A stretch of DNA of 64,000 bases from contig OU612072.1 of the NCBI GenBank assembly GCA_914767715.1, forward strand, positions 9,360,001-9,424,000. Reading direction: 5' to 3'. The DNA is from Membranipora membranacea. Lineage: Eukaryota > Bryozoa > Gymnolaemata > Cheilostomatida > Membraniporidae. The translations under genes and the position numbers were made by a program. The notes beneath the pieces are model-generated. The model made no database searches and was not told the origin of the DNA. It saw nothing but the letters and a program-made list of their open reading frames with translations. Within the stretch, counting starts at the first letter, position 1. Each line of letters begins with the position of its first letter. Of the stretch, positions 50 to 46,060 are shown one piece after another.

Positions 50-237
50 ATGGAACAGTTTGTGGTTGTTGATGTACACTCCACACTTAGAGCGGACAGT
101 TTGGCCTCATCACATCCTATCTATGTCCCAGTCCAACATCCTGACGAAGTCAACGAGATCTTTGATAGCATCTCATACGGGAAGGTAATTACAATTCTTT
201 TTATGTGTATAATACGGGACTTCATATACATATATAG

Positions 238-271
<34 letters not shown>

Positions 272-3200
272 CAAATGTGTGTGTTTGTGTGGGTCCGTAC
301 GGTTTAATTTGCATTCCTTTGAAAGAGACCAACGTTTAAAGACTTTTTTGTTAAAAATAACAACTAATATCAGCTCAAACTGGTTATTTAATCCCATGCA
401 CTGATTTGGGAATTAGAACATAGAAGTTCATTCCTCTCACTTCAAATGGGATGCTTACTGTTCCAATGATGATGTAACTTCAAAAAGATCTGCTGTAGTC
501 AGGGATTGGACCCTGGCCTTCTGTGTCACAAACTTTGATGATATCTGCTCGGGTACAGCCGCTTGCCCAATTTTAATGAAGGAACATGAACCTTTTTTTG
601 TGAGTCGAAACCTCCTAAAATTGATGAGATGTCGATGCCTTGGAACTTAATGAATGTGATAGCCTGTCACAAAAAAAGGGTTTGCTCTTGCTCTTATATA
701 CCTAAACTAATTGGTGCACGTCTGATTAATGAGGTTCTGAACTTTCCCTGCTGTCAAGGACTTTCAATACTGTGTTCACACTTACAAGTCATAAATAATG
801 TGTTGTCATTAAAAAACATTTGATAGCATTGTTACAACCGTTATTTTTTTCAGGGTGGCTCACTTATTCGAATGATGAGATATTTCCTAGGAGACTCAAT
901 ATTCCAGAACGCTCTTGCTGTAAGTAATAAACCGACTAACACAACGACAAACATACATATAGAGGAGAGTCTTGTGAAACATGAATAACAATAAAGCTAC
1001 CATAAGTGTCATGATTTCTAGTAGTCTCAGGTGTAGTGTGATGTTTGTGGTCCAAATAGAACTGGATGTATATCATTCTCCCTATTTTCTGTATGTTAGG
1101 CTGAAGCAAGAAAAAACCTAAACTCAACATCATGAATGAATGAATGAATGAATGAATGAATGAATGAAATCCTATAACTTATTAAATAATATCCCATTTA
1201 TCGAAACTCTGGGTACTACAGCACTAGACCAACTTTAGTCCATTTTTCTGCATTTTGAGTTGCTTCCCCTCTACTGGTCACGCCAAAGTGGAAGGGCAGT
1301 AACTCAAATGCAAGCAAATAGGATCAAACTTCTTACTCTACAACACCTACCTTATTCTCAAAATTCATATCAATATTATAGAACTACATAGATGAGAAGG
1401 CTTACCAGGCAGCGCACCATACAGACCTGTGGAAGGCCATGCAGGACGAGGCAGACAAACAAGGACTCAAGGATCAGGATGGAAAGGCACTCGATATCAA
1501 AGCAATTCTGGATACATGGATCCTTCAAATGGGTGGGTGTGGTTATTTATAAATCTACAAAAAAAATTAAAAAAAAACAAATAAATAAAATGTAAAAAAG
1601 CAAAAATAAAAATAAAATAAAATAAAATAAAATAGATCGAATAATATAATATGAAATTCAAATATATTATATTATTCGGTATGATATGATCTCTTACTAG
1701 CCGAGAGCAGGTTGTGAAAGTTATGGTTGTGTCTCTGGGTGCGGTCAAGTTATAACTGTTGTGCCGCAGGGGTCTGTACTCGGAACCCTGCTATTTCTCA
1801 TGTTTGTAAATAATCTGATGAAGCTGTTTCTTATATGCTGATGACTGCCTACTAGTCACCAGTGGGGAAAACTCAAACATATCCGCAAAACTTATGAAAA
1901 AAAGCGTCCATCAAGCATCCTGTTGGTACAGTGCACGTTGCCTTGTTTTTATCAACGATAAAACGGTGTCATGACCATTTACAATAAACAAAACATCAAA
2001 TCTCCGGAACTGAGTGTGATTCTTGATAACAAATAAACTTTTAAATCCCATACCAGTAAAATTAAACAAAAGCTTTATCCAATAGTCACCAACTTTCAAC
2101 GTAATACCCAAATTAGCCACGCTTTGGTACATTCTTATCTTGAATACAGTTTTCCTCTACTTTTTACAACAAACAACTATGTCAAAAAGGAATTTAAAAC
2201 AATTGAGAATAGATGTTTTACAATTATAGACTATGGCATATCTAGATTTCTTTTTTTAGTTACATGTCCTTTTAATCCTACACAATATTTTATCGATATA
2301 TTTCTGCTTTCTTCTCCAGACGAAAAATTAAATATATATAATTTGATATGATACTGTATGGTATTATATAGTATAATGATTGTTCTTCTCTTCTTCAGGT
2401 TATCCCCTGTTAACAATCACAATGGAGCCATCACCACCAGCAGGCAAACACCACCTCAAGATGACACAGAAACACTTTCTACAGGACGACACACAGACAC
2501 CAGATCCTAAATACCCAAGCCCCTTTGAGTAAGTAAGCCCCAATTATATTGAGAATGGGGGGCTAAGTTTTTTCGCCTTTACTCTTGCATTTTATTCACT
2601 TTTCATGATATTGTTCTGATACCTGCAACAAGGCAATTCCAGCAAATTTCCATGAGAAAGACTAGAACCACAGCTTTAAAGATTACCTTTAAATTGAATA
2701 TATATAAAGCCTTGTCACTAAAGAAAAGAATTAGCTGTGTGACAAGGCTAGACTGAGCCTTTTCTAATAGACTTATCAAAGCTGTCATACTAGACACAGA
2801 AATAAGATAACTCTGATTGCTTAAACTTTCAATGACAAATATTAGTGTTTGCAATTGTTGAACCAATCTTGTTTTGATCGAACCATATCTCACAACAATG
2901 TTTAATTTTGCATGTTACAGCTACAGATGGGATATACCTATAAGTTATGTGAGCAGTGAGAATCCTAACTTTGATGTGGATCAGACATCTGTACAATGGT
3001 TTACCAAGGATCAGGCCTCAAGTAAGCTCACTCTTCTTTACACGAACCCCTTCCAAATAATTTTAATGATCTTCAGTCAGGTTTAGTTTCAATATAAAAC
3101 ATAATTAAATGTCTGTTGGTAGGTGTAATATTCTAAAATTCAATTGATTATAGGAATGCTTTCGTGGAATTCCCTTAAATATGTTAGATAGCCTAAATTT

Positions 3201-6200
3201 TTTTATTTTAGCTTTGCTGTTTTGAATATTATAGCACAAATATTTTTTATACAGGTACCTTATGGTTGCTACTAACATTACTCTACTATTGCTTGTTCCT
3301 TTCCTCCTATAGAAACGATAGAAGTAAATAATGATCTTGCTTGGATGATTGTGAACCCTAAACAGTACGGATTCTACAGAGTTAATTATCCATCTGAATA
3401 CTGGCAGAAGATAATTGACCAGCAAGCTGCCGACCACACCAAGATTGACGAGCTAAACAGAGCACAAATTATCGATGATGCCTTTGATTTAGCCCTGTTA
3501 GTCCATTTTCCAGCTGTGTATATTTCCAGGCCTAGTCCAGTTGGTCAATAGCAATCAAAAATGTCGGTTATTGTAAAAAAACCTGTTCTGTTTAAGTCCA
3601 TCTTGGTTTTTTATTCCTGAAAAATAATCTTTAAGTGTCAAGGGAATTATTTTGAACCATCACTTAACAGGGGAGATAAAATACCGTAGACCCAATAGAG
3701 TTTTTGCACTTCCAGATTGTTTGTTTCATTCATTGATGTCCTTGTGAGATTAAAATTTGTTTTTGTTAATTGCAATTAGATTACTTCAATATGGACAGTG
3801 GATACTTTTTGCTTTCATAAACACTTTGAAGGTTTCCTAGCAGGCTACCATACAAGACAAATTATTAACACCATGTCGAGCACAAGAGGCTTTTACACAC
3901 CTGTTCAAATTTTTATTGCATTTGAACAAATAGGGGCTCCTTGGCAGCTGCTCAAATATACCAACGTCTAGCTGCAGCCTCAAAAACATGCCTCAGTTGA
4001 TGAAGGCTAGTGATGATGCGTGTTTGTCCTCATGGTTATATGAACCATTCATACTAAGTTCCTATTGGCTAATAACTAAGCATAAGTCATGGTGTTAATG
4101 ATTTGTCTTGTAATGTACCCTGCTAGCAAACCTTTAGCACTGACACTGCTAACTGCTTCACCAAATACTAGAAGCTGCACATGTTGCTATTTCTATCACA
4201 CAATAGAAATATTACAGTAATTGATTTGAGCCAATAATGTAATGAAAATCTATTGTTTCAGTGCTGGAAAGTTGAGTATCACATATGCTATGGAATTGAC
4301 CAAGTACCTACTAAAAGAAGAAAGTTGGTTCGCATGGGACGCAGCAATCACCTCCCTATCGTATGTCTCCTCAGCACTTAAGAGAACTGAAGCTTACGGA
4401 GACTTCAAAGTAAGCTTGCCTTTCTCTCCGTCCAGCACACTGAATGCTTGACAATCTGAAAACTTAATTCTTCTTTATCCTAAAATCCTTTCTTAATTTT
4501 AATTATTTAGCGAGCAATACAGGTTGAAATTTAAAATGAGTAAAAGTTTTTTAAATTGCTTTGCCAGTGTCATGTGAGTTGTTGGTAATATTGGTGTTGC
4601 TGTAATATGTATTTCTTTTCTAGACTTACTACAAGACACTTATAACACCATTCTACGACAAATTCAACAACGGCTGGGCTGTTGATCTTACTAGCTCCAT
4701 TGTTGAACAGTAAGTAGTACGCATTGCCTCAATTCCAGAGATAATATAAACTTGTGATATCATTTTAAACATTCAAAATCTCTTTCAGACTTGGTTTAAG
4801 CCATGTCTTAAAAATAAGCTACACTTATTACTGTTATAGAGGACACTTTCCCATCAATAACCCAATGTGAAAGGGCTCATTCACTGCATTATGCATCAGA
4901 AAATTACAAGAATTATTTTTGATGATATGAACTCAAACCTGCTATAGTATGGTAACTGGTTGTTTTTGATGACATCAAAATCAATAAGAGATGAGGATGA
5001 ATTCTTGTTGACAATACATTTGTTCTTATTATGTATAATTATTTTTATCATAAATTTTATTATTATTATCATTATTATTATATGTTAGATACAGACAAAG
5101 AGATGCTGTGAGCAGAGCCTGCTCCTATAACGTCGGTGACTGTAGGGCAAAAGCTAAAGAGCTTGTAACTTCTTGGATGAGCAATCCAGACAACAAGTAA
5201 GTTAACGACATTTCCTGTTTTTTGTCCAGCCATTGACAGGACAACATGACATTGTAACTACGCTGCCATTACAGAAATGTTGGCAATTAAAAGCATAGGT
5301 CAGGAGATTTACCCTGCATTTTTATTTGCAGGAAAGAACATATTTTATGAAAATGACAAAACAATGAAAATAAACAAAAAACATATCATTTCGTCGGCTG
5401 CATAGCACAACAGAGAGAGCAACTCTCATTTTGAGCTGTTGGAACTCGCTTTAATATTAGTGCATCTGTAAATATAATTCCAAAAATACGTTGACAATTT
5501 TTTTTCCTATTTTGTGTGAGTTAGATTAGCCATTTCACTGTATATTTTAAACTTGTTGTATTCAATGTTTTAGTCCAATCAGTCCGAATCTCCGTGATAC
5601 TGCTTACTGCTACGCTGTCAAACAAGGAGACGAAGCTGTGTGGGACTTCATCTTTGAAAAGTTCCAGAATGAGAATGTTGCTGGAGAGCAGATCAAGCTT
5701 CTCAGATCTCTCGGATGTACAGATGAGATGTGGCTCCTACAAAGGTGAGACAATCATGTGACTAAACTTAGATCCCAGATCTGTATGAATATTCTCCTAA
5801 GGGCTATTCTGCAACATATAGAGTGGGTGCCAGAGTGAGTTTACTCCAAATACCCGGCAAGTGCCTCCCGATACTTTTATAATTTGACCCCAGCTTGACA
5901 CACTAAATTTCTCGCCGTTGAAAATGAAGGTGCATGAACTATTTCAAACTCTATTGATTGATTGAATGGTCAGTGAGTGTTATATTGAAAGTCAGCTTGA
6001 TTGATGTGTGGTCCGTTAAGCTTATTTCTGTTGAACTGCTGAACTAGGATAGGATAGGATAGGCTTAGGATAGGCTTAAGATAGGCTTAGGATAGGGTAT
6101 ATCAGAACGTATGATAAATTACAACATAGAAATAAATAGAAGAAAAACATCAAAAACCATCTGAAACCTGCACCAGCGGCAAGCATTTAATCCCATGTTC

Positions 6201-6352
6201 TTTGTCTTTAGGCTCCTCGACTACGCCATTGATGACACTAAAGTAAGAAAGCAGGATTCGTATATTGCCGTCGGAGCAGTTGCTGGTAATACCCTTGGTA
6301 AATTCTTAGCTTGGGACTGGCTGAGAGGAAACTGGGAACAGCTCTATTCTGA
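50..6352 (+). CDS. Aminopeptidase N-like M1 metallopeptidase, constitutive exons of the C-terminal part
   Basis: Eleven exons join in frame: 50-184, 854-919, 1382-1532, 2399-2528, 2921-3021, 3313-3496, 4262-4409, 4624-4709, 5089-5196, 5574-5744 and 6212-6352. All have AG acceptors and GT donors. They give 473 codons plus two bases, read on into the alternative terminal exons. The protein matches the M1 family after the zinc site: SSHPIYVPVQHPDEV, FDSISYGK/GGSLIRM, the TWILQMGYPLLTI stretch, the strand-rich third domain ending in YGFYRVNY, then the helical ERAP1-like C-terminal domain (INDAF-type IIDDAFDLA, SLSY, SPNLRDTAYCYAV). M1 enzymes remove N-terminal residues from peptides, usually as type II membrane ectoenzymes. 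The GAMEN and HEXXH exons must lie upstream of position 1, so catalysis cannot be verified here. Family assignment is firm; the exact orthologue is not. Confidence 0.93.
226..271. repeat. (TA)n microsatellite
   Basis: An almost pure TA dinucleotide run in intron 1 of the aminopeptidase gene. Open frames through it (IYIYIY) are not genes. Confidence 0.9.
480..565 (-). repeat. tRNA-like SINE head (degenerate)
   Basis: On the minus strand, a GGGCAAGCGGCTGTACCCGA stretch resembles an A-box region. About 45 nt later comes GGGTCCAATCCC, a good B-box match. The tRNA arms do not fold cleanly, so I read it as a tRNA-derived SINE remnant inside an intron and not a tRNA gene. Confidence 0.35.
1134..1168. 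repeat. (GAAT)n microsatellite
   Basis: About nine tandem GAAT units in the intron before exon 1382-1532. Confidence 0.9.
1638..1678. repeat. Perfect inverted repeat (15 bp arms)
   Basis: CGAATAATATAATAT at 1638-1652 is repeated in exact inverted form at 1664-1678, with an 11 nt loop. It sits next to an (AAAAT)n tract at about 1600-1635 in the intron. Confidence 0.85.
1740..2330 (+). mobile_element. Decayed LINE reverse transcriptase fragment
   Basis: The fragment translates to VVPQGSVLGTLLFLMFVNNL and, after a frameshift, LYADDCLLVT. These are the RT motifs that precede and include the YADD active site. Downstream text such as NLRN and FLITNKLLNPIPVKLN fits the RT thumb. Several stops and frameshifts are present. 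It lies inside the intron 1533-2398 in the same orientation as the host gene. Confidence 0.75.
3831..4132. mobile_element. MITE-like foldback element with about 44 bp terminal inverted repeats
   Basis: The left end (from 3831, GGTTTCCTAGCAGGCTACCA) and the reverse complement of the right end (ending 4132, GGTTTGCTAGCAGGGTACAT) match over about 44 bp with a few differences, both running to ATTAACACCATG. The 300 bp body has no coding potential. It lies in the intron 3497-4261. I could not define a clean target duplication. Confidence 0.75.
6044..6098. repeat. AGGAT / AGGATAGGCTT short tandem repeat
   Basis: Tandem AGGAT units grade into an 11 bp AGGATAGGCTT-type repeat in the intron 5745-6211. 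Confidence 0.8.
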
Positions 6353-7587
6353 GTAAGTTTTTATTCATTTTCCTCGGGAATCAGGTTGAGATTCTTCATC
6401 AAGCGATAAATAACTCAGAACTCAACTCATGAAGGACGTTGAAAGGATCCAACCACTTTGAATGAATAGAACACATAAATTCGAAATTGAGAACATTGTC
6501 TCTAAATTGCATGCGTTATACAACATGGAACTTGTACTTTGAACTTGAACACATACAACCGTCTTGGTTGGCATTTAACCTTCTTTTGCACCACATATCA
6601 CTGACTGTCTGTGCACCCCTCCTCTCTTTCTATCACCACCTTCTATGCCTATCTAGTTTTGCACCTCAGCTTCATCATCACTGCATGGCTCAATAACATC
6701 AAGATATAATTTGTATCTTGACATTTTTGGCCAATCTATCAATCAGATGTCACAGGGTGACAACCTCTTTTGCTGCTGATAGTAACCATAAACTGCGGGA
6801 CTTGATAGTGTTACAACCCCATGCTGCCTAACACAAAGGGTGTTGAGTTGCTCAAATAAACTAAATGCCTATCTAGATCAAAAGAGCAATGTGTCAGTAA
6901 AACAAAAAAAAGTTTATAAGAATTATCTCGGGAACAACAACTAAATCATTTGTTCACCAGTTTTCTGGTACTCTATACCATCTCAGAATAGGTTTACCTC
7001 AAGCTAGTGACAGCCACAGCAACATAAATGGTAAGTGTAGAAAACCCTTGAAACCGTTAATGACTTAGATAAATCATTATTACTAAATGTTTCTCAAGAA
7101 TCTAGATACCATCGAACCATTCATTGTCCTTCTCTCCTCTCTTACCATACATCCTGTCAATTCAAGGCAGGATCAATTATATTCTGTTCACTCGGCCTCA
7201 AGCTAAAATTTATTTGGAGTTGTCACTACTGTCCGTATGAAACCAAATTTGGTTTTAACTTCTCAGTGTTTACCAATTGAAATGAAACATGAACTGTAAA
7301 TATGTACCCCTAATTTGCAAATTAAGTTCACACTACTTGAAACAAAGGCTTTCACTTCAATAAATCTAAAAATTTGGTTGCTTAAGCGTAATACCAGATG
7401 ATGTTTAAATAAAAAAATAACGAAATTCAATTAAATGATCATTTTTAGTGTTGTAATTACAAGGGACCCACCTTCAAACTTAACCCAGGAGGCCAGGGTT
7501 TGATCAGTAAAACACAGCTTGCCTTTGATACCAATAACCATCATTGCAGAGCTCTACCACAATAAGTCTTTATTCTCTTTTTCTTAG
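6353..7587 (+). other. Long intron before the terminal exon array
   Basis: This is the intron between exon 11 and cassette a. I see no exon, RT motif or clear terminal repeats in it. A small open frame at 6487 has no recognisable domain. Confidence 0.6.
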
Positions 7588-8309
7588 ATTCAGTGTTGGT
7601 ATCATGATGTTGGGACGATTTGTAACATCATCTCTGGACAAGAGATTCACACAGTTTGACTATGACCAGGTAAGAGGGTACATCAGTGACGATTTGGACA
7701 TCAGTTTCGGCTGGAATGCTTTCAAAAGGATCAATCAATCACCTTCAATCACTGGTTTATCTAAAATACTCGAATGTTACTTGACGCCGATACAAAGTTT
7801 TAGATCGAAGGGTCACTTACATGGTCTCCTTTAGGACACATGATCTACTGTTTTCTCAATATTGACTGGTTGGATGGCCAAGAAAGTGAAACTAGTCTAT
7901 GAAAAGTTTTCTTTTAAAAGCACGTCAATAATACACACTGACATATTGTTACAATATTGTCACCTATTGCGTTCACAATCTTAAACATTGATATGTTAAA
8001 TCTGCCTAGCTTGGACTAATTAAAAAGACAGCTCTTTGAGAAAATGCGTGATGTCACACGTGATGCTCATTGGTAAGATTCTATTTTTTTCAACCGGTGA
8101 ATCAAATTTCCATTGGCAATCCCTAAAAACTTCAATACATTCTACCTTTCTCTTGGCTTTTTTAGATTGTGGCTTTCACTGACCAGACTGAGGAGTTGGG
8201 ATCAGCCACCCGTGCATTTGCTCAAAAGAAGGAAGGAACTCAGGCAAATATCAAGTATCTCGAGCGCAATCTGGATGACTTGGTCCGATGGCTCAGCAGC
8301 CAGCCGTAG
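7588..8309 (+). CDS. Aminopeptidase terminal exon cassette a (alternative C-terminus)
   Basis: Exon 12a (7588-7669, 82 nt) takes the two-base overhang of exon 11 (GA|A, giving Glu) and starts FSVGIMMLGRFV. Exon 13a (8166-8309) starts IVAFTDQTEELGSATRAFAQ, contains NIKYLERNLDDLVRWLS and stops at TAG 8307-8309. Together they encode the last 75 residues of the ERAP1-like domain, the normal C-terminus of M1 aminopeptidases. Joined to the constitutive exons they give 548 residues within the window. An AATAAA at 8638 follows. This is the proximal member of five tandem cassettes, so it is probably the default end. Splice choice is inferred from phase only. Confidence 0.9.
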
Positions 8310-8637
8310 GAGGTGTTTCCGCTGATGCATTGTAACCCTGCTTTGCATTTGCCTTAAAACAAATAGAAACGAATACAAAACAGAAAGCAATGTCAAGTTT
8401 ATTATATACATATATGTAAATGTTCCCAAGGATTGACAATCCAAATTAAATGAGTATTGCCACCTGTTCGGTGCAAATTCATTCTGATTGTAAATCTTCA
8501 TATAACCATAATTATGAACTACTCCTGTCTCGCTGCCATTCCAAGATTTAAAACATGCCTCCATTCAGCTTTATATCTGCTGCTACAGGGGCTTCCAATA
8601 TTTTTTCAGATAATTTTTCTACAATATCCAAATCTCC

Positions 8638-8643
8638 AATAAA
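8638..8643 (+). terminator. AATAAA polyA signal, cassette a
   Basis: AATAAA lies 329 nt downstream of the cassette a stop, before the next cassette. Confidence 0.6.
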
Positions 8644-9146
8644 CTTGCTTTATTACAGATTCTAAATTTTCTACCTCTGAAAACACTGCACATTGTGCAC
8701 ATTTGTAACTCAGAAAAAAAATCAGTCCAAATTGTAATGTTTGCAGTACTACTGCAGCGAGGCTAGGATACTTGCATGTTTAGATAACAAGCCTGTCGGG
8801 GCTTGACTTATTCAATTGGACAGAAATTTGGTCACGATTAATATAATATAAATTATGTTCAACATGGAAACTAAACAAGTTGAACTTTGAGCGTACCGGT
8901 CAGAAGAACTCCTCCACGAGATTAAACATAATATGTCTTATAAGAGGTGAGTGTTCCCGCCTTGGCATCTATATTTGAATTGTAAGTATTTATAATGGTT
9001 TCGCTGCATCTTGGTGCATGAGTTTATGTGTTGCATGACTGGAATAGTGGAGCTTAAACTTTGAACCAAAAAAACCTGTCAAAATACTCAGATGTACACA
9101 CCAATTTGATTTCGATCACAAAGCATGATCTTTTTTTATGATTCAG

Positions 9147-10108
9147 ATATTCTGCAGGCATAACTTCAATACAGAGGATAGTGCGTTACACTGTGCAGAA
9201 AGAGTTTTCAACTGGAAAGTTACAGGAGGTAAAGCAAAAAGTGGGGTTCATCGCTTTGTGTTAAATGATTATTTGAAAAATTCCAAGAAGACTTTGTGTC
9301 AGTTTGGTACGCAATAGCTTATGGTGGAAAATTTTATAGTGAACCGGTGGAATTGAAAAAATCTAAATGGATTTTGGAACAAGGAGGCAACAACAATCGT
9401 AATGAACATCCATATTCCATCATCAAATTATACTATACTATTTGAGTACACTCCTAGGTTTGCATCATTGATACTGGTTTTCCGCTATCAAATACCTAAT
9501 CATCAGATTGGCCTGTTTGAGTGCTTTATGATCAACCAGATCTCACCCGACCAACGAAAGAACCAACCAAGACATATTGGAAGAAAAATGTCATGCGGAT
9601 AAAAAACGAGTATTTTCACTAAGGGGAACAATAAAAAGGCTACTGTAATTTGAGTTGGTTGCGAAGACCCTCCAAGTTTTAGCTTGACAGATTTTCGACT
9701 TAGAAAGCAAATTATTTTGGGTGTGGAGCTAGGTAGGGATGAACCACGCTAAAATAAAACCATGTAAAATCAAGTAAACTTCAATTATATCGCTAGCATG
9801 GTGTATCATACATTTTTAAATATAGTAATCTTCTATTTTGAAAAATTAAGTATGTACAATATCAACCATATCTGTTTGTGTTTGCAGGATTTAGGCAATG
9901 TTTCGATGAGAGAATTATTGTGGAATATTTCTTTTCGTATCCTATGTGTAACTATGATTTTTCATTGTTGCAGATGGAAATATTTATGGCTAATAATGAG
10001 CTGGGCCGTGCAAAATCTACATTCAGACAAGCTGCTGAGGGAACTAGAAACAACATCAAATATCTCAAAAATAATCTGAAAGATTTGAGAAATTGGCTCA
10101 GTATGTAG
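9147..10108 (+). CDS. Aminopeptidase terminal exon cassette b
   Basis: Exon 12b (9147-9228) has exactly the 82 nt length and phase of 12a and begins E-YSAGITSIQRIVRYT. Exon 13b (9974-10108) begins MEIFMANNELGRAKSTF, keeps the NNIKYLKNNLKDLRNWLS core and stops at TAG 10106-10108. Splice sites are TTCAG|AT and GAG|GTAAAG for 12b and TTGCAG|AT for 13b. This is the most diverged upstream half of the set: it replaces the acidic aromatic end of exon 12 (DYDQ type) with KLQE. No other M1 exons lie between cassettes a and b, so it is not a second gene. AATAAA occurs at 10442 and 10725. Confidence 0.82.
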
Positions 10109-10441
10109 CACTAAAGCGCCATGAATTGACAACGTTTACCAACAGCTAAATTTAGAAAAAATTCTGCTCCTTTGAATATACACTTTGGAAAACAACTGCA
10201 ACTGCTTGTTTTTCGGCGCTGGTCAGATATCATCCTTAGATTCTGCTGTTCTACAGAGCAGATATTGTGCTTATTCATAAAAATTATATCATTTCTCCCA
10301 TTGCTGAGAATAGACAAATTAAAAAAATGTTATAAAACTGTAAGCAGGGACAGATGCTGTTGTAAGATTTAAGAAAGGTGCTGTTGCTGTATTATTGTGG
10401 AATGAAAAGTTTAAGTTGTTTTTAATCTATTTTAGTGGATA

Positions 10442-10447
10442 AATAAA
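10442..10447 (+). terminator. AATAAA polyA signal, cassette b
   Basis: AATAAA lies about 330 nt after the cassette b stop. A second AATAAA is at 10725-10730. Confidence 0.6.
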
Positions 10448-10838
10448 AAGCTCATTTATTGCATCAGCTTAGACAATTATCGATAGTAGTTGAAAAGGAA
10501 CTCTCTGCATAACCTTATAATTTAGCTGGTAGTCCATAATTTTTGGATCCATGTTCGTGACAACCCAAATTAGGCAATGGAAGAGGAGAAACTGGCACAT
10601 ACTTTTATGGTAACTTCTACGACATTTCTTACAAGCATGTTTCGTCACCCTTGTCATGTATATCAGTACATCAGACTTTCTATGACCTGAACCAAACAGC
10701 ATTTTTTCTACAGTTCAAACTAAGAATAAAAGCCAGCAGCTGAAATGTAATCCACAGAGCACATAATGACCCTGTATTGTTGACCTAATTCATCATATTC
10801 ACATTGATACATTGCAGCCAATGGTATTTATCTTGCAG

Positions 10839-11308
10839 GTTCCACACTGGGCTGAATTCTCTCTACCTCACAGAGTTTATCAGGGTGACAACAGAAGGCT
10901 CATTTACAGATTATGATGTTAAACAGGTGAGTGAGGGCAATGGTTTTATTGTGTGTTGAGGTTCGGACTCATTGACTGCACACATATGATGACTGAAGTC
11001 TTCACTCGATGTATTGTCTGGCACTTAGTTGGTTTTGAAACCTTTATCAGGGAAAAGCCCAAAGGAAATGCTGTACTTTGTTGCAACGGAAAACAAATGT
11101 TGACAATCTTTTCTGGCCTTCTCAATTGCTTTCGATGAATTAATATGCCATATTATTTTCCCTGTTCTAGATTAATGCATTTAAAAGCCTGTATGGCAAT
11201 GCAGGAGTCACAGCAAGAGCCGTCAGGCAAGCGGAAGAGAAAGTGCAGACCAATGTGAAGTTCTTACGAAGGAGCCTTGAAAACATTTCAAACTGGCTTA
11301 ACACATAG
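10839..11308 (+). CDS. Aminopeptidase terminal exon cassette c
   Basis: Exon 12c (10839-10926, 88 nt) is two codons longer than the others. It adds G to the GA overhang (Glu) and reads FHTGLNSLYLTEFIRV ... FTDYDVKQ before GTGAGT. Exon 13c (11171-11308) reads INAFKSLYGNAGVTARAV, then TNVKFLRRSLENISNWLN and stop TAG 11306-11308. Phase compatibility with exon 11 is kept. I do not see a clear AATAAA close downstream, unlike the other four cassettes, so this copy may use a variant signal or be less used. Confidence 0.8.
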
Positions 11309-12145
11309 CTAATTTATGTCCTGTTCACCAATGCAACGATATTTTATTGTCTCTTGTAATATATTTTTGTATTTTATTGTTAATCATCAAAACCATTCCA
11401 GATTTCTCATCAATCAACCATGTTAAATTAATTAGTATGCCTGGCTTAGCATAAAACTTGTTATTCTATCCAGATTGGTTGGATATTTGTACACTAGGTG
11501 GAATTGAGAAGCTCCTTCAAGGCTCGGGTGACTTTTTATCGGTAGTGATTCTGTATATTTTCACATTTCTTTTCCAATGAGCCAGAAGGGAGTCCTAATA
11601 CTGTGTTGAGGGTTTTGCAAACGCACAGTTTTCCTCCCCTGCCTTGAACTGGCTAGGATAACTGCTCACTAATGCCATAGAGTCGTATACACCCTCTTGC
11701 ACGAGGATTGCCCCTAAAACTGCCCCTGAAACAAGATCACTCTCAGCCTCATTTAAATAGAATTCTAAATGCCTGATCAGCCCATTACTTTTTGATCAAA
11801 GCAAAGTCATAATTTACGACTTGCTAGAGTGTATCTAGGTATCTACCTTATTATCAGGATAAAGTAAGTAAATATTTATTTCTATAGCCAGTCATTGATA
11901 ACAGGTTTATCCTACCTCAGACTGCTGTGATGCTCTGCTACTTATATTCTAATCGCGAAATTATCTTCCACTTCAAGTGAGCTACCAAACGTTCTAAATA
12001 GACAGTGATTGATTGGAACTGAACAAAATCAGTAGGTAGATCAAGATTCGCATGCTTCTGATGTGCAGCAGCCAAACTAGGCACAGTTTTCTCAATTATT
12101 TTCGTTTAATGATTTTTTGCAAATGAATTGCATTTTTTGTTCTAG

Positions 12146-12683
12146 GTTCGGAGTCGGATTGAATATGCTTGGCAATTTTGTGAGTGCTGGAACTTCAAGT
12201 TCTTTCACAGAGTTTGATTTGCAGCAGGTGAGTGCGATTCTGCTCATGGTGAGCAGAAGGATCCGAACTTATGGTGACTACCAATCGTAATCCAGATCAT
12301 TTAGTTTGTAAATTAAGCCATAACCCTTTTACAGTAACATATGGAAAATTGTGTTCTTTTCTGCAGCGATTTGTCCACTGAGCATAATGTTATTATGACG
12401 GCGTTGTCCTAATCTTTCTAGATCTAAGCAGTGCATGCTGGAGTTACCCTCTTTTAATCAAAGGGGAGATTATTGTCAATACTCAGGACAGAGTTCAGTT
12501 GTCCATTTTCATGCTATGTTACGAAACGCTGTTCCTTTACAGATTGATATGTTCATGAACTCTCAAACAGATTTAGGAGTTGCCTCCCGATCGTTTGCTC
12601 AGTCTAAAGAGCGTGCACAGAATAATGTGAAATACCTGCAGAGAAACCTTCAGGAGCTAACCAGCTGGCTCTCCACACAATAA
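12146..12683 (+). CDS. Aminopeptidase terminal exon cassette d
   Basis: Exon 12d (12146-12227, 82 nt) reads FGVGLNMLGNFVSAG ... FTEFDLQQ before GTGAGT. Exon 13d (12543-12683) reads IDMFMNSQTDLGVASRSF, then NNVKYLQRNLQELTSWLSTQ and stop TAA 12681-12683. It is very close to cassette e (1,558 bp further on), with shared flanking and intronic sequence, so d and e arose by a recent tandem duplication. AATAAA lies at 12840. Confidence 0.85.
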
Positions 12684-12839
12684 TATTACTGCATTTAAAT
12701 AGTGGATAAGTGCTGTTTGTCCCAACATGTGGAATGACATTCGAACTAGTTCAAGTTCATGACAGTGAATCTTTCTATACTCAACCATTCTGAAGTTGAA
12801 TTTCACTTGAGATACCTCTGATCTTGTTTTGGAAATTTG

Positions 12840-12845
12840 AATAAA
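12840..12845 (+). terminator. AATAAA polyA signal, cassette d
   Basis: AATAAA lies 157 nt after the cassette d stop. Confidence 0.6.
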
Positions 12846-13703
12846 AGCTACAGATAAATATTGAAATTGAAGCATCCTATTGACTTTGATGCCATAAGAA
12901 AAATGTATCCTTGGACTTGACAAGTGATGAACTGCCTCTCTTTTTTCCTGCACAGTTTTCCTGCTATGTGAACATATACTGACATTGCCTAAGTCATCAT
13001 TCAAATTAAAAAAATCTACCCTAATTGTTTTTTTTGTGCAATAGGTGCTTGATATTCATCTGCTGCCATAATTGAAATTAATATCATTATTCTGAAATAA
13101 AAGACATAGTGAGCAATCTTGCTGCCATGCAGAGAACGCTTTTTAACTGATGTCAAAGGAATCACAACTTACATCACCGCACAGTCTACACCTATACTTG
13201 TGTTGTTAGTAGCTGTAAATAAACTTAATTTAATTTGGTTATGCTATAGTGTCATATACAACTTGGCTTCTGGATCCATGATCATATGATCACATTTAAC
13301 TATGATTCTTTTCCTGAATTCAGCTGGCTCTTTGCAATGTATGAGACATCTCACCAATGCCATTTCTTTACTGCTACTATATTTCATAACAGCATTATCA
13401 TATCCAACTCGCTAGGCTGTATTTTGGGAATGTACCTTATTGTCAAGATAAAGTAAGTCATTATTTGTTTTTTTTAATGGCAACTTATTATTTAATAGAA
13501 TATATATGTTTTCTCAGAGCACAGTGATTCTATGCTAAACATTCACTCAGCAAACTTCTCTTCCACTTCAAACAGGCCTCCTTTCTGCCTTAGTATGGTT
13601 TAAATTGAGAGAGTTTATGATTGATAGATACCAATTTGTATGTCTGGTTGGCAAACTATGTATAGTATCTAAATTGATTTATTCATTGTATTCGCTATTT
13701 CAG

Positions 13704-14245
13704 GTTTGGGGTGGGATTGAACCTTCTTGGTAGATTTGTAAGCACAGCTACTCAGAGCTCCTTCACAGAGTTTGATTTGCAGCAGGTGGGTGTACGACTA
13801 TATTTTTTACCCAGACCACCGACAGTAATATACCAGCAAATATTGGCACCAACATTATTTAGTTTGAATCAATCTAATTCATTATTGAATCATGTGGTTA
13901 AGTTAAATTTACACGTCTTATTTTTTTTATCATGATACTCTCTTTCTTCTTGTCAAACATCTTATCAATGTGGGTGGAGCTTATCCCCTTTTAACAAAGG
14001 GGAGATAACTTATAAATTAATCATGAAAATTTGAATATCCAGCCCAGTAATCCTGGTCGAACATGACAAACTATGAAATTTGATTCCTTATCATATTTTA
14101 GATTGAGATGTTCATGAACTCCCAGGATGATCTGGGAGTTGCCAGCAGAGCTTTCGCTCAGTCAAAGGAGGGTGCACAGAACAATGTGAAATACCTGCAG
14201 AGAAACCTTCAGGAACTAACCAATTGGCTTTCCACACAACCATAG
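13704..14245 (+). CDS. Aminopeptidase terminal exon cassette e
   Basis: Exon 12e (13704-13785, 82 nt) reads FGVGLNLLGRFVSTA ... FTEFDLQQ before GTGGGT. Exon 13e (14102-14245) reads IEMFMNSQDDLGVASRAF, then NNVKYLQRNLQELTNWLSTQ plus Pro and stop TAG 14243-14245. It differs from cassette d at only a few residues, clustered in the SAGTSS/STATQS stretch and near SKERA/SKEGA. It is the last clear copy. AATAAA follows at 14682. Confidence 0.85.
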
Positions 14246-15125: not shown

Positions 15126-15198
15126 GTTCTCTGACCAGGTCAATCTTAAACAAGGTCGATCCTATATAGCTGCTAGTTTGGATCGAACAATTCCCAGA
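15126..15198 (+). pseudogene. Possible decayed sixth exon-12-like cassette
   Basis: After a TTTGCAG acceptor, 73 nt are open to AGA|GTGAGT. With the GA overhang of exon 11 they read Glu-FSDQVNLKQGRSYIAASL and end in phase 0, exactly the phase behaviour of exons 12a-e but three codons short. Resemblance to FGVGLNLLGRFV is weak. I could not find a matching exon 13 before the LINE begins near 15,700. It may be chance. Confidence 0.3.
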
Positions 15199-17132: not shown

Positions 17133-19285
17133 ATGGCAGCCTCCAGTAGATTATGTTTAAATAAAGATATTGGAGAGTTGGCTGACAATGAGGGTTCTGA
17201 ATTAGATAGTGATAGTGATCCAGGTAACAACTAAGCATAAATTTGTTTCCTTTACATATTTTATATAGTTTTTGAGCTGATGCTGGCATGTAGCAGAGGC
17301 TAGCCAGGCATAATATATTTTAGATATATTTCATTCATCAATTTCTTGGACGACTACAGTCGTCATTAGCTCCCATATGAAAAACATACCTGCACAGAGA
17401 GTGTTGTCCAGTGTTGACATATTCTTCTAAGTCTTTGGAAGACTAATCCACACCACACTACTACATGCTACATAGCCCCCCCCCCCCCCCCAAGTGGTTT
17501 GAAGACTAAAAATCAAGCAACTTAGGAGGGCCTATTATTACATTTTGGGAGCTGCTGTTGCATTTGTTAGTAGGTTACTAGTAAGAGTCTATGCATATTT
17601 TTAGAGGTTGGGCTCTCTGACCTAGAACCTGAAGCCTCAGAATCTGATGATGGTGGTATTGTTGGTGACGTTGACAATGTTGATGAGGTTGCTCCTGTGC
17701 CTGTACCAAGGGGTAGGGGACGTGGTAGGGCTCCCAGAGCACGAGGCAGAAGCAGAGCGCCAGCCAGGGTTAGGCCTAATGACATTGCGTATGGTTTGGT
17801 AGACAATGGTGATGATTTCACTGATCTGCCTAACTATATAGATCAACAGATGGTACATATCAACCAGAATACATCACTGACTGAAATGGATGCACTCAAC
17901 CTACTGTTTGACAATGAGTTTTTTTCGCAAAGTCAAACAAGAAACCAATAGATATGCACGACAAAGTCAGACTGCTGAGCAAAGAGACAGAATGGTCTAT
18001 TGTCACATTGGATGAAATAAGGAAATTCTTTGCCATACTGCTACATATATCTCTGGTGAAAAAACCCACAATAAAAGATTACTTCAGCACTGATTCAGTA
18101 CTGCACGCATCGTTCCCAAGGCAGGTTGGCATGAGTAGAGATCGCTTTCTCAGCATACTTCGGTACTTGCATCTCAACAACAATGAAACGTATATAGCAC
18201 GTGATCAACCGAATCATGATCGTTTACACAAGGTCCGACCAATGGTGGATCTGTTGAATAGACGATTCAAAAAACTATATACGCCATCAGAAAATCTCAC
18301 TATTGATGAAGCAATGATACCGTTTTAAGGAAGGTTAGGTTTTAAGGTATAGATGAAAAACAAACCAAATAAGTATGGGATACGTTTGGAGGTAGTTGCT
18401 GATGCTGCCAATGGCGTCGTCTGTCATTTTGAGACCTACACTGGGGCAAATGCGACCCACAGCAACTCTGTAACTGATCTAATCTTACGACTATTAGTTC
18501 CTTATGAAGGAAATAACTTCCGAATGTTTGTGAGTTATTTATCTCCAGAGTTATTCCACAAGATGCTGGATAAAGGATTCTTTCCAGTTGGCACTGTAAT
18601 GAAATCTAGAAGAGATCTGCCAGTTGTATTTGCTGCCACCAAACTGAAACCGGGAGAGATTGTGTGCAGACGTAAGGGGCAGCTGCTCGCCATGAAGTGG
18701 AGGGACAAGAGGGACGTTTTTGTTCTCGGTACCAAAGAAAAGCAATAATGGTAGAGATAGGAGCCGAAAGAAGAGATGGTGGACATCAAACCACAAAGCC
18801 TGCTACTGTCATGCGCTACAACGCCAACAAAGCAGGCGTAGATCGACACGGCCAAATGGCCAGCTACTATCCTGTGCACAGAAAATCCGCCAAATGGTGG
18901 CAAAAAACTTTCTTTAGACTGTAGACAATGGGGGTAATAAATGCACATAGCTACTTGAACATCCACAATCACAAGAAAACACGTCTTGAAAAGTTGATCA
19001 AAACTGTCACCAAGGAACTTGCTGGCGTGCCCGTGGAACCAATTCCTAGAGTACCAAGAATAGCCACTGAGCCTCGTCGTCATCAAGAAGGTGACCACTT
19101 TCCACTGAAAATACCCCCAACTGTGCACAAACAGAAACCAACCGAGCGATGTGTTCATTGTCGTTCAAAACATGACGCTCAAGGACGCCACATCCGACAT
19201 GACTCTTCATGGAAATGCTGAGTGTATTGTCGCACTGTGTATATGCTTCTTTCCTTATCACAGACCACATTCACGGCGCAGGTAA
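17133..19285 (+). pseudogene. Degenerate piggyBac-family transposase with a 5' intron
   Basis: A first exon 17133-17223 (MAASSRLCLNKDIGELADNE, then SDSDP) ends at GTAACA and joins in phase to an exon at 17605 (VGLSDLEPEASESDDGG), giving the acidic N-terminus. An RGRGRGRAPRARGRSRAPAR basic patch follows, then the DDE domain: ETNRYA remnant, KFFAILLHISLVKKPTIKDY, MSRDRFLSILRYLHL, NLTIDEAMIPF (first catalytic Asp), KNKPNKYGIRLE, SPELFHKML, KWRDKRDVFVLGT, YNANKAGVDRHGQM and KWWQKTFF. The C-terminal Cys-rich finger is ERCVHCRSKHDAQGRHIRHD ... CICFFPYH. Frameshifts lie near 17,940, 17,995, 18,750 and 19,225, with in-frame stops near 18,326 and 18,350. The expected Asp of the second motif is absent before SYLSPELF. 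The copy is dead. Confidence 0.9.
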
Positions 19286-41906: not shown

Positions 41907-44441
41907 TTATCTTATGCGCAAAAAGTGAAGTGAAATAACAAACAAGCTTAGGAAGAGGTAGGAGTTGTAATGATTGTGTAATGATTCGGTTGAAATGAGA
42001 TAATATGGGATGTAATGCACATTGGCGATAATGCGTAAAGCCCGTTTTTGCAACAAAAATAATCTATTGAGGGCATTATTGCAGGACAAGTTGCCAATGA
42101 TATGGATACCATATATAAGGTGACAATAGATAAACTGGAAGTAAAATGTGCGGGCACTTGCTATATCCAAGAAGTATCTCAAATTTTGAAGTAGGTAAAC
42201 ATTCCGTTGTACCTTTTTATATACATACTCTAGATGATCCTGCCATGAAAGCGAGTCATTCAACACAAAACCCAGAAGCCTTGTAGTTCTCTGTCTGTTT
42301 AGTTTTTCATGCCCTATGTACAGTTCCAGGTCATAAAGCGGATCTGAGATGTTAAGTAGCATGTAATGAGATTTCTGAACATTTATAACCATCCGGTTAC
42401 GATTGCACCAATCCAAAATGCCACTTAAATCTTCAGATGCCTTTGCCTTTAGTTGCTGAAGGTTTTTATTAGATGACAGGAACACTGTATCATCAGCATA
42501 TGCATATGATGATGAGTCTGATTTTGATGAAGTTAATAAATCATTTATGAAGATGAGAAACAAAGTTGGTGCTAGGATTGAACCTTGAGGGACCCCTATT
42601 GTGATAGGCAATCTACAAGATTCAATATTATTGAGTTTAACAAACTGCCTTCTGTCTGTCAGAAAGGTGTCAAGAAGTTTTAACATATTTCCTCCGATGC
42701 CGCAAGCCTTCAACTTGTTGTGTAGTAAAACATGGGATACACAGTCAAATGCCTTTTTAAAATCCAGAAAAAGTAATGTCATAACATTTCCATTAATTTT
42801 CTCCACCAAAGAGTCTGAAATAATTTTAAATAAACTGTCTGAACAAGAATGGCCTTTTCTAAATCCACATTGAAGCTCATGGATGATTTTGTTCTTAGTG
42901 AGATATTCTTGCAGATGGTGATTTATGTGTTTCTCAAATATTTTTGAAAGAACAGGCAAGACTGAAATTGGCCTATAATTTGATGGGTTATTTATATCCC
43001 CAGATTTATGTATTGGTGAAACTCGAGCTAGTTTCCATGTTGAAGGGAACTGTCCTTTGCTTAAAACCCTGTTAAACATATCGGTGACAATATCCACAAT
43101 ATAAGGCCAAACAAGCTTCAACATCTTCACTGTAATTCTGTCAGGTCCTGTACTTTTACTATCAGGAATGTGGAACAATATTCTTGTACATGTGAAAGGG
43201 GTGAATTGTGGTATGTCTGTCAAATTATGTTTGGATACGGGAAATGTCATCTCATCTGTTACAACAAGGTTCTTTGTGATTGATTTTGCAATGGATGTGA
43301 AATGGCTGTTAAATTGATCTGCACTCAAATTTGTCGCAGGGAAAGTCTCCTTCTTTTTATTCTTTAATACATCCCAAACAGGTTTTGTATTACCTTTAGA
43401 CTCTTTAATAGTATTAGAAATAGCTCTTTTCTTCTTTTGTCTGATCATATTAGTGACATAATTTCGCTGTTTTTTATATCCTTCCCAATCACCGTTTTGT
43501 TTGAGTTGATCTCTGATTTTGATGTTCATTTTTACCTCATCATCCAACCATTTTGGAAGATTATGCGTTCTTACAAAATGAGTCTTCTCAAACACGAGTT
43601 TTGATATAAGATGATTCAAATGGCTATAGAACTTCTCAAACATTGAGTCTATTGATCTTTCATACAGTACGTAACCAAAATTTTCCCTTGAGAATGTGTT
43701 AAAAATGTTTTCAGGTGTTGCAAATGAATAATCCAAAAATGTTACCTTACATCTTTGTTTAGATATTTTAACATTTCTATCAATCTCTCTTGAAGCTACT
43801 ATCATGAAATGATCACTCAGTGAATATTTGATGACACCAGATTTAGCAATATTGTCACTTTTACTTGAATAGATGTGGTCAATTAGTGTCCTTGATGAAT
43901 TAGTTATGCGAGTGGGTTCAGATATAAGTTGATTCAACAGTAGTGGAGAGGTAACATTATCTAACCACCTGTTTTTCGAAGTTGGATTCAGCAAATCAAT
44001 ATTGAAATCACCAAATAATATAATTTCATCGTTCAAACCATAACAACGCTCGACAAACTCTGAAAAGTCTGTGTTCCATGATGCTTTTGATTGGGGAGGT
44101 CTATATAAGTATGTGACCAAAAAACTCTTTTGGCTTCTGGGTCTGACCTTGACTGTTATACTCTCATCCATGTAAAGATCTAAATTTTCCAGATGTTCAA
44201 TGACCAGTGAATCATGGACATAGCAGAGTAATCCCCCACCATTGTTACAGAGCCTATCCCTTCTTATCATCGTATATCCTGGTACCTCATATAGGCAGCT
44301 GTCATCATTTTGATTCAAAAATGTTTCAGCCAAACACAGTATACTAAATTTGTGATCACTAAGAATTAAACGAACCTCTTCCAGTTTGCTTGCCAATCCA
44401 CGGATATTAAGATATGCGCTATGAAAATTCATTGCCATCAT
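41907..44441 (-). CDS. LINE copy B ORF2: APE endonuclease and reverse transcriptase
   Basis: The 844-residue frame is intact. The N-terminal endonuclease shows LNIRGLASKLEEV, LCLAETFLNQNDD, NGGGLLCYVHD, YLYRPPQSKASW, ILFGDFNIDLL, TLIDHIYSS and LSDHFMIV. The RT follows: ARVSPIHKSGD, NYRPISVLPVLSKIFEKHIN, LQCGFRKGHSCSDSL, LLFLDFKKAFDCVSH, ITIGVPQGSILAPTLFLIFI, YAYADDTVFLSS and TRLLGFVLNDSLSWQDHL. All expected catalytic positions (GDFN, SDH, the FLDF Asp, YADD) are present. The end (ISLHFLRIR) may be shortened relative to copy A. The protein nicks target DNA and reverse-transcribes its own RNA. Confidence 0.92.
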   Translation of the reverse strand: MMAMNFHSAYLNIRGLASKLEEVRLILSDHKFSILCLAETFLNQNDDSCLYEVPGYTMIRRDRLCNNGGGLLCYVHDSLVIEHLENLDLYMDESITVKVRPRSQKSFLVTYLYRPPQSKASWNTDFSEFVERCYGLNDEIILFGDFNIDLLNPTSKNRWLDNVTSPLLLNQLISEPTRITNSSRTLIDHIYSSKSDNIAKSGVIKYSLSDHFMIVASREIDRNVKISKQRCKVTFLDYSFATPENIFNTFSRENFGYVLYERSIDSMFEKFYSHLNHLISKLVFEKTHFVRTHNLPKWLDDEVKMNIKIRDQLKQNGDWEGYKKQRNYVTNMIRQKKKRAISNTIKESKGNTKPVWDVLKNKKKETFPATNLSADQFNSHFTSIAKSITKNLVVTDEMTFPVSKHNLTDIPQFTPFTCTRILFHIPDSKSTGPDRITVKMLKLVWPYIVDIVTDMFNRVLSKGQFPSTWKLARVSPIHKSGDINNPSNYRPISVLPVLSKIFEKHINHHLQEYLTKNKIIHELQCGFRKGHSCSDSLFKIISDSLVEKINGNVMTLLFLDFKKAFDCVSHVLLHNKLKACGIGGNMLKLLDTFLTDRRQFVKLNNIESCRLPITIGVPQGSILAPTLFLIFINDLLTSSKSDSSSYAYADDTVFLSSNKNLQQLKAKASEDLSGILDWCNRNRMVINVQKSHYMLLNISDPLYDLELYIGHEKLNRQRTTRLLGFVLNDSLSWQDHLEYVYKKVQRNVYLLQNLRYFLDIASARTFYFQFIYCHLIYGIHIIGNLSCNNALNRLFLLQKRALRIIANVHYIPYYLISTESLHNHYNSYLFLSLFVISLHFLRIR

Positions 44442-46018
44442 AGAAGTTTTTCAAAATGGCATTTAAGTTTAAGTGAGTCTAAAATCATACCTTGACTGAG
44501 GACCTTGTTGTATTGGTCCTGAGTGTCAAACTTTACTTTAAAGATGCGCATTTTCTTTTCCCCTTTGTAAATCCTTATAGCTGAAGAGTTGGGGAATTTC
44601 TGTGATATCTCTTTTATTACAAGTTCATCATCAGCATCGATAGGAATGCCTCTCAGCATACCAGTGTTGACTTTTGCTGATTCTGGATTGATTGTCTTTC
44701 TTACTTGCGAATTTTCAAATAGTAATGTATTCCAAGTGTTTATCAACTTGGTCACTGTCTTTTCATCGCGAAGGTGCAGCATAATTTTTGGAGATTCTGT
44801 CTTGAAATTGTAGGTCGTTATGTTTTCTATGATTGTTGGGCCGAATTCACGGTTAATCTCACGTCTGATGTTGTCTTGATTATAGTTTTGGTAGGTTTTT
44901 GATGACTTGTTGATACTTATTACGATGCAGTGCTTGGGGTTGAAGTTGTTTGGACGAGCTGTTTTTGTGATAGATGGCATGTGATCTGGTGTGTTGGATG
45001 TAGTTGCCGGTGAACTTGGTGTTGGTGTGTTTTGATGTGTTGTTGATGAAGGAATATTTCTGTGGAGTTGTCTACTGCTGCTTGCAACTGATGACCATTG
45101 TTGTGTGGTGTTAAGAGTTTGAGTTGGAAGATATGTTTGTTGTACGGTATTTTTGGAATTTGATGGACATTCCTTTGTACTAGGGCTCTCAGAAAAAGCA
45201 CTAGTAATTTTATCCAATTTAACCTGCATGCTGTCCATCTTCTCCTGCATGCTGTCCATCTTCTCCATCATAATAGAAAGCACGCCATGTAGAGTTCTGC
45301 ATGACGCACATCCGGGACTCTCCCCACAATCTCTGTCCCTGGAATGACTGGGAGCGCTGTCGACGAATGGAGCAGAAGTCTCCATTGTCTCAGACAGGGA
45401 ACACTGAGAAGACTCTGGCAGTGAGACTGTAGATCCCCCTAGAGCACCTTGTGTGCTTTGTTGTTGAGTTGTGCTGCTGTTGGCATTGGTTTGTTTACTT
45501 TTCAGCGATTCCATTGCATTTGAGCATGAGGAACGGACTTTCTCGTTTAAATTGGCAATTGTTTCTGGCTGTAATTCACCTACCAGCTTAGAGTAGTGAC
45601 TTATAAACACATCCACATCTTTGATAGCATTCACCAGTATTCTAGAGGTGGTATGGTAAAAGTTTGCAGTATAAAGGCGTCTATCCGATTTCTTCTTGTT
45701 TTTAACGGTGAATATGGTGGCTGTTGTGTTTTTGTCCTTATCTTTATTCATTTTCCTAGTTACATAAAGATATTGCTCCTGAATTGATGTTTGAAATATA
45801 GATCTGACAAGCTCAAAAACAGCTGTGCTGCAGTCAACGACAATTTGGATGTTTCCCGGATTACCTTTTATGGTGATAGACTCATCAGTGGTAGTAGAGT
45901 CGATTTTCTTTTGTAATGCCTTCAACTTGTTGAGGGAATAGGTGAAGATATTATCCTCAGCATCATCCTCATCAGGATCATTACTGGAAATGAGTTTTCT
46001 CTTCTTGCCTTTGTTCAT
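44438..46018 (-). CDS. LINE copy B ORF1 protein
   Basis: The 526-residue frame starts MNKGKKRKLISSNDPDED (basic then acidic). It continues with the N-terminal block shared with copy A (YSLNKLKALQKKIDSTTTDE), a CxxC motif (GCASCRTLHGVLSIMM) and a heptad/octad repeat (MEKMDSMQEKMDSMQVKLDK) that should form a coiled coil for trimer-like assembly. A Ser/Thr/Gln-rich linker and a C-terminal domain (IRREINREFGPTIIENITTY; GMLRGIPIDADDELVIKEIS; KMRIFKVKF) follow; the latter may be an RRM-like nucleic-acid binding fold. Its stop TGA overlaps the ORF2 start (ATGA). Confidence 0.85.
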   Translation of the reverse strand: MNKGKKRKLISSNDPDEDDAEDNIFTYSLNKLKALQKKIDSTTTDESITIKGNPGNIQIVVDCSTAVFELVRSIFQTSIQEQYLYVTRKMNKDKDKNTTATIFTVKNKKKSDRRLYTANFYHTTSRILVNAIKDVDVFISHYSKLVGELQPETIANLNEKVRSSCSNAMESLKSKQTNANSSTTQQQSTQGALGGSTVSLPESSQCSLSETMETSAPFVDSAPSHSRDRDCGESPGCASCRTLHGVLSIMMEKMDSMQEKMDSMQVKLDKITSAFSESPSTKECPSNSKNTVQQTYLPTQTLNTTQQWSSVASSSRQLHRNIPSSTTHQNTPTPSSPATTSNTPDHMPSITKTARPNNFNPKHCIVISINKSSKTYQNYNQDNIRREINREFGPTIIENITTYNFKTESPKIMLHLRDEKTVTKLINTWNTLLFENSQVRKTINPESAKVNTGMLRGIPIDADDELVIKEISQKFPNSSAIRIYKGEKKMRIFKVKFDTQDQYNKVLSQGMILDSLKLKCHFEKLL

Positions 46019-46060
46019 TTTGGGTGAAAATTACCCAGATTTATTGTCAATCTTTCTGGG

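Follow-up and report, generated by a model that had tools for sequence, protein, structure and literature searches.

A Membranipora membranacea aminopeptidase N gene with five tandem, probably alternative, terminal exon pairs

The DNA analysed here (the window) is a stretch of 64,000 nucleotides (nt) from the bryozoan Membranipora membranacea (GenBank assembly GCA_914767715.1, contig OU612072.1, below C8, positions 9360001-9424000), and its forward strand carries the greater part of an aminopeptidase N (APN) gene in which eleven shared exons are followed by five tandem pairs of exons 12 and 13, called cassettes a to e (Table 1). Exon 1 is the first exon inside the window, and the exons with the catalytic motifs lie upstream of it. 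Exons 1 to 11 (positions 50 to 6352) have GT-AG introns throughout and a joined frame without a stop. When they were joined to cassette a, the nearest solved M1 enzyme in a comparison with the PDB was mammalian APN (expectation value, E, 1.1e-113); among the matches listed the best 26 are all named aminopeptidase N or aminopeptidase (E 1.1e-113 to 7.3e-104), and the next one stands at 2.1e-70. The same joined protein contains the ERAP1_C domain IV (PF11838, Pfam, E 1.8e-84). GAMEN, HELAH and WLNE, the last with the downstream Glu, are encoded upstream of the window on the plus strand (C8:9359074, 9359182 and from 9359561), where several blocks also match a paralog described below, so the cassettes hang on an apparently catalytic gene. 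By its catalytic motifs, its ERAP1_C domain and its closest solved enzyme, the encoded protein is classed as an M1 aminopeptidase of the APN type, and the gene carrying the cassettes looks like a catalytic M1 gene.

A first-pass annotation of this DNA had proposed the five exon pairs, and all are present where it placed them. It gave 82 nt for exon 12 (88 in c), which is confirmed, and about 140 nt for exon 13, which measures 135-144 nt with the stop. The expected AG or GT is found at all 15 splice sites (five exon 12 acceptors, five exon 12 donors and five exon 13 acceptors), all five cassettes are open, and each terminal unit has its own stop. One donor, that of exon 11, faces five exon 12 acceptors in the same phase. 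The cassette peptides have 72-75 residues, are 25-86% identical in pairs and share 13 positions invariant in all five (in the numbering of e: E1, G5, F21, F32, G40, Q48, E51, N56, K58, L60, L64, W70 and L71). The absence of other M1 exons between the pairs also stands: a tblastn search with exons 1-11, at E up to 0.01, yielded none from 6352 to 14245. Cassette profiles, run against the 3458 open stretches in the window that have at least 12 residues, recovered the five cassettes, as they must by construction, and nothing else below E 0.89. A possible sixth exon 12 at 15126-15198 (plus strand, AG...GT, 73 nt, right phase) was rejected, having neither profile support nor an exon 13 after it, and is probably a chance resemblance. 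We hold with high confidence that the array itself is real and is maintained at least in part.

The reading frame imposes a simple rule on this array. Exon 11 ends two bases into a codon, each exon 12 adds the third base and exits in phase 0, and each exon 13 starts in phase 0; the entry from a GA overhang, the phase 0 exit and the stop in every pair had been described in the first-pass annotation and hold in five of five. We computed joins with zero, one or two exons 12. All 15 joins of one exon 12 to an exon 13 of the same or a later cassette (5 matched, 10 hybrid) remain open to the natural stop. Two joined exons 12 shift the frame and meet an early stop in 10 of 10 cases, and skipping of exon 12 shifts it in five of five, with a stop inside exon 13 in four. 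Since zero or two exons 12 shift the frame, a normal end requires, among the joins tried, one exon 12.

The cassettes resemble the ends of M1 enzymes. Within the joined protein, cassette a is aligned with APN up to its end in the PDB comparison. Taken alone, cassettes d and e match ERAP1_C at E 0.0008 and 0.00026, under the curated score of Pfam, and e also matches APN (E 2e-5, PDB). For b alone the best PDB matches are M1 aminopeptidases (E 0.0013), with ERAP2 first and APN next, and for c alone the best match is the M1 aminopeptidase APN (E 0.0029).

Residues 3-72 of cassette e align with 892-963 of a 967-residue APN chain, which we take to be the full-length human protein. On this assumption about numbering, the human segment (sequence of entry 4fys) has Phe896 and Phe898 opposite cassette residues 7 and 9, and both positions fall within the first ten residues of exon 12. 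An excerpt of PMC5385526, where 4fys is called human APN, describes the last domain IV helices of pig and human APN, alpha25-27, as an ARM repeat whose alpha26-alpha27 loop moves into the active-site groove upon closing; according to the same excerpt, this loop contains Phe893 of pig APN, which in a modelled complex sits about 4.5 A away from the bond that is hydrolysed and was proposed to lock the peptide. Opposite the human SFSF the cassettes read IMML (a), ITSI (b), L-NS-LYL (c), LNML (d) and LNLL (e), gap placing being uncertain in so short a stretch. Phe896 is thus faced by Met, Thr, Leu, Asn and Asn in a to e, and Phe898 by Leu, Ile, Leu, Leu and Leu, with a Tyr between in c. The loop-aligned stretch is two residues longer in c (again with uncertain gap placing, it is two residues shorter in the paralog's cassette p1 than in its p2). 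From the position of the exon boundary it follows that the segment aligned with the lock, and everything after it, lies in the alternative part. The C-terminal domain, to which the first-pass annotation had ascribed an effect on substrate choice, can in this way be treated more sharply, as the swapped part begins shortly ahead of the residues that align with the mammalian APN substrate-lock loop. From the same boundary we infer that the isoforms would differ in substrate handling.

Selection among the cassettes was estimated from Nei-Gojobori counts as the ratio of nonsynonymous to synonymous divergence (dN/dS). The comparison, already suggested in the first-pass annotation, was informative for one pair: d and e (dS 0.96, dN 0.10) give a ratio of 0.10 and are under selection, while the other nine are saturated or nearly so, with proportions of synonymous differences (pS) of 0.73-0.93 and of nonsynonymous ones (pN) of 0.35-0.52. 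All ten pairs show an excess of synonymous differences (Fisher p 1.2e-10 to 0.0022). The d-e identity is 76% in exon 12 and 83% in exon 13, 49% in the intron, 62% in the upstream flank and 44-59%, depending on the stretch, in the 3' flank. In a neutral simulation (substitutions only, one lineage, half the d-e distance) frame and splice dinucleotides survived in 112 of 20000 runs, and it is unlikely that d and e would both be intact had either been free since the duplication. Judged from these sequences, selection has maintained at least d and e. The d/e repeats begin about 0.3 kb ahead of exon 12 and run into the 3' flank, at a spacing of 1.54-1.60 kb. About 0.25 kb before exons 12d and 12e, a block at 11838-11881 and 13427-13470 (plus strand) is 84% alike, the flanks overall being about 62% alike; it is seen also in the inverted copy described below and may be a regulatory element or a repeat.

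Whole-genome searches covered the 339-Mb genome in 18 contigs. Cassette e gave 14 matches, all at three places on C8; this search was not exhaustive, as it missed exons 12b and 12c and the paralog's first exon 12. Other M1 loci, on contigs C1 and C3, match the cassette profiles weakly (best E 0.015), and the profiles were not tuned to them. The APN paralog at C8:2.050-2.063 Mb (plus strand) has matches to all eleven shared exons and two intact cassettes of its own, p1 (exon 12 at 2060102-2060177, 76 nt; exon 13 at 2060687-2060863) and p2 (exon 12 at 2061624-2061705, 82 nt; exon 13 at 2062243-2062419). Their dN/dS is 0.17, their exons are 75% and 80% identical, and their intron identity of 0.43 equals the shuffled mean of 0.43. 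The paralog proteins have a C-terminal extension with the final residues SQSVNPGSV(I/V)G. In the cassette tree p1 and p2 are sisters (support 98), and a, p1 and p2 are split from b, c, d and e (93); with human APN added, p1+p2 receives 90 and a+p1+p2 receives 73. Inside the b-e group the branching is weakly supported (36-43 without human APN, 45-61 with it), and d+e obtains 43 and 61, probably due to the long branches of b and c; the pairing of d with e comes from DNA and flanks and not from trees. The simplest reading of these sequences would be that cassettes multiplied separately in the gene and in the paralog, and gene conversion may be an alternative to this.

An inverted APN copy lies on the minus strand at C8:9.332-9.341 Mb (C8:9332000-9341400), about 19 kb before the window. 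Of exon 1 it has the first 14 nt, and exons 2, 11, 12a, 13a, 12c and 13c are missing, as are the initial 47 nt of 13b and more than half of 12e; exon 3 is partial, there is a single exon 13 of the d/e type, and stops are found in exon 12d and in what remains of 13b. Remnants of cassettes b, d and e keep the same order as in the gene, and no pair is whole. Its local matches of at least 140 nt, exons included, are 65-89% identical, by a measure that differs from the d-e alignment. Since its d-like flanks are distinct from its e-like ones and the two follow in order, the copy arose after the d-e duplication, and it shows how an array looks when it is not maintained.

A second tandem duplication came to light when the blocks upstream of the window were compared with the paralog. 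Two exons of 156 nt, 62 nt apart, lie at C8:9356170-9356325 and 9356388-9356543 (-3830 to -3675 and -3612 to -3457 in window numbering, about 3.5 kb upstream). Both are open in the same frame and bounded by AG and GT, share 28 of 51 residues and score as Peptidase_M1_N, a domain I match, at E 7.6e-19 and 4.7e-14 (Pfam). Their length is divisible by three, so that using both together would keep the frame, and the 62-nt gap may prevent it; the two are candidates for mutually exclusive exons. In the paralog one domain I exon is intact and the second looks damaged.

Taking all this together, we consider it quite probable that the locus is a single APN gene, that its five terminal exon pairs are alternatives and that their ends are used as alternative last exons, with less assurance for b and c. 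Such a reading, put forward in the first-pass annotation, agrees with the arrangement of the exons, with the frame rule, with the selection seen for d and e, and with the paralog and the inverted copy as two controls within the genome. Several points weigh against it. Isoform use is deduced from sequence, most weakly for b and c. Alone in Pfam, b has no M1 match and c no match of any kind, and when residues 380-548 of the joined protein were searched against a large protein collection, relatives from other animals did not appear among 346 candidates at E up to 0.001. Synonymous divergence is infinite in six of the ten pairs and 2.6-3.5 in three, so that dN/dS is usable for d-e only; the case for b and c comes from intact frames and sites at saturated distance and from homology. 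Their branches are long (about 0.8-1.1 substitutions per site) and fit relaxed constraint as well as a new function. Two single exons of the decayed inverted copy, 12b and the exon 13 of d/e type, have stayed open, so an open frame in one exon alone proves little. AATAAA or ATTAAA follows four of the five terminal units; neither occurs after c in the 837 nt before exon 12d, where there are only variant hexamers, and c may use one of these or a later polyadenylation site. Blastn of the upstream introns revealed no element that the cassettes share, the sole match below E 0.01 being d-e. As to the lock, Phe893 of the pig enzyme would correspond to either Phe896 or Phe898 of the human one.

The rival to be taken most seriously, although we regard it as unlikely, is that use is confined to one cassette or a few, for example a, d and e, and that b and c are old duplicates in decay, spliced rarely or never. 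Their long branches and their lack of an M1 match alone in Pfam would agree with it, as would c's want of both standard hexamers, and the paralog's second domain I exon is a precedent for an apparently dead exon duplicate. However, b and c have kept splice dinucleotides, frame and stop at saturated dS, pN is below pS in all their pairs, and their best PDB matches are M1 C-termini, whereas the inverted copy kept no b, d or e pair whole over an apparently shorter time than the age of d-e.

Far less probable is that b-e are the remains of separate tandem APN genes stripped of their upstream exons. APN genes are often clustered in animals, and the inverted copy nearby could be counted in favour of such an origin, but the upstream exons that would assign b-e to other genes were sought between the cassettes in the tblastn search with exons 1-11 and not found. 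Moreover, given the extent of the d/e repeats described above, the repeated unit that is seen is the 3' end of the gene, and acceptors in the phase of exon 11 would be useless without exon 11. An assembly error that set allelic or collapsed copies end to end deserves next to no credence: tandem repeats are a known source of misassembly, but even in the closest pair, d-e, 17-24% of the sites in exons and roughly half of those in the intron differ, far beyond alleles, and in the inverted copy the remnants of b, d and e follow the same order.

For one gene with alternative last exons, the simplest model would be as follows. The exon 11 donor would join one of the five exon 12 acceptors, the matching exon 13 would then end the reading frame, and the transcript would be cut and polyadenylated nearby; the choice may be set by competition between early splicing with polyadenylation and reading on to later pairs. 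The products would have one catalytic core and different domain IV loops and last helices closing over the active site, and may hence differ in substrate choice or turnover. Going further, we may tentatively suggest, as a possibility somewhat more doubtful than not, that splicing chooses the substrate-closing loop, that five cassettes (15 in-frame joins) combined with the domain I pair could let a single gene make at least ten enzymes with a common catalytic core, and that cassette duplication occurred at least twice in this gene family.

Table 1. Exons of the aminopeptidase N gene within the window (window numbering; hexamer positions are counted from the stop)
Feature	Position	Strand	Details
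APN exon 1	50..184	+	GT-AG, open frame; Peptidase_M1 match starts here
APN exon 2	854..919	+	GT-AG, open frame
APN exon 3	1382..1532	+	GT-AG, open frame
APN exon 4	2399..2528	+	GT-AG, open frame
APN exon 5	2921..3021	+	GT-AG, open frame
APN exon 6	3313..3496	+	GT-AG, open frame; ERAP1_C match starts here
APN exon 7	4262..4409	+	GT-AG, open frame
APN exon 8	4624..4709	+	GT-AG, open frame
APN exon 9	5089..5196	+	GT-AG, open frame
APN exon 10	5574..5744	+	GT-AG, open frame
APN exon 11, last shared exon	6212..6352	+	terminal GA, donor gtaagt
Exon 12a	7588..7669	+	82 nt, AG/GT
Exon 13a with stop	8166..8309	+	144 nt; ATTAAA stop+135, AATAAA stop+328
Exon 12b	9147..9228	+	82 nt, AG/GT
Exon 13b with stop	9974..10108	+	135 nt; ATTAAA stop+209, AATAAA stop+333
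Exon 12c	10839..10926	+	88 nt; two extra codons, in stretch aligned with substrate-lock loop
Exon 13c with stop	11171..11308	+	138 nt; no AATAAA/ATTAAA before exon 12d
Exon 12d	12146..12227	+	82 nt, AG/GT
Exon 13d with stop	12543..12683	+	141 nt; AATAAA stop+156
Exon 12e	13704..13785	+	82 nt, AG/GT
Exon 13e with stop	14102..14245	+	144 nt; ATTAAA stop+186, AATAAA stop+436

Elsewhere in the window, a transposase remnant in two frames (17918-18745, plus strand) matches DDE_Tnp_1_7 and is presumably of piggyBac type. A retrotransposon at 41907-46030 (minus strand) has reverse transcriptase and endonuclease in an open frame of 847 amino acids, preceded by a frame of 530 amino acids without a Pfam match. 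Open stretches on the minus strand at 50803-51189, 54961-55269 and 58966-59262 match WSC, PAN_2 (just under the curated score) and PAN_1, and perhaps belong to secreted or surface proteins.

Arrays of alternative last exons are known from lola and mod(mdg4) of Drosophila, where, as would be the case here, common upstream exons are joined to one of many 3' terminal exons; there the ends of transcription factors are swapped, and here it would be the end of a metallopeptidase, as an exon pair. The tandem mutually exclusive exons of Dscam are also comparable, being homologous exons of which one is used at a time, and the 156-nt upstream pair resembles them most, whereas the 3' array is terminal and shares no intronic element beyond d-e (blastn). 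Mammalian APN (ANPEP) is the closest solved relative, and the aligned segment of the human protein has Phe896 and Phe898 where cassettes a-e have residues other than Phe. Among M1 aminopeptidases, human ERAP1 is the likeness: an excerpt of PMC6219399 describes two isoforms that differ in exon 20, at the C-terminal end. As far as this excerpt goes, those are two isoforms with a short differing portion, and here five homologous pairs replace 72-75 residues, including the lock-aligned stretch. Narrow searches of the open-licence literature found, by title, no tandem or terminal exon array in M1 peptidases. It seems that a known gene architecture occurs here in a protein family that is new for it, and the swapped segment is an unusually telling one.

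Gene duplication is the usual explanation for diversity among peptidases of this type. Should the isoforms be produced, the gene would be a case of diversification by splicing in such a peptidase, and the bryozoan would possess a natural series of M1 aminopeptidases, alike except for the end of domain IV, including the stretch aligned with the substrate lock. One core with five natural ends could then be used to test how domain IV sets substrate choice and turnover, also in the antigen-trimming relatives of these enzymes.

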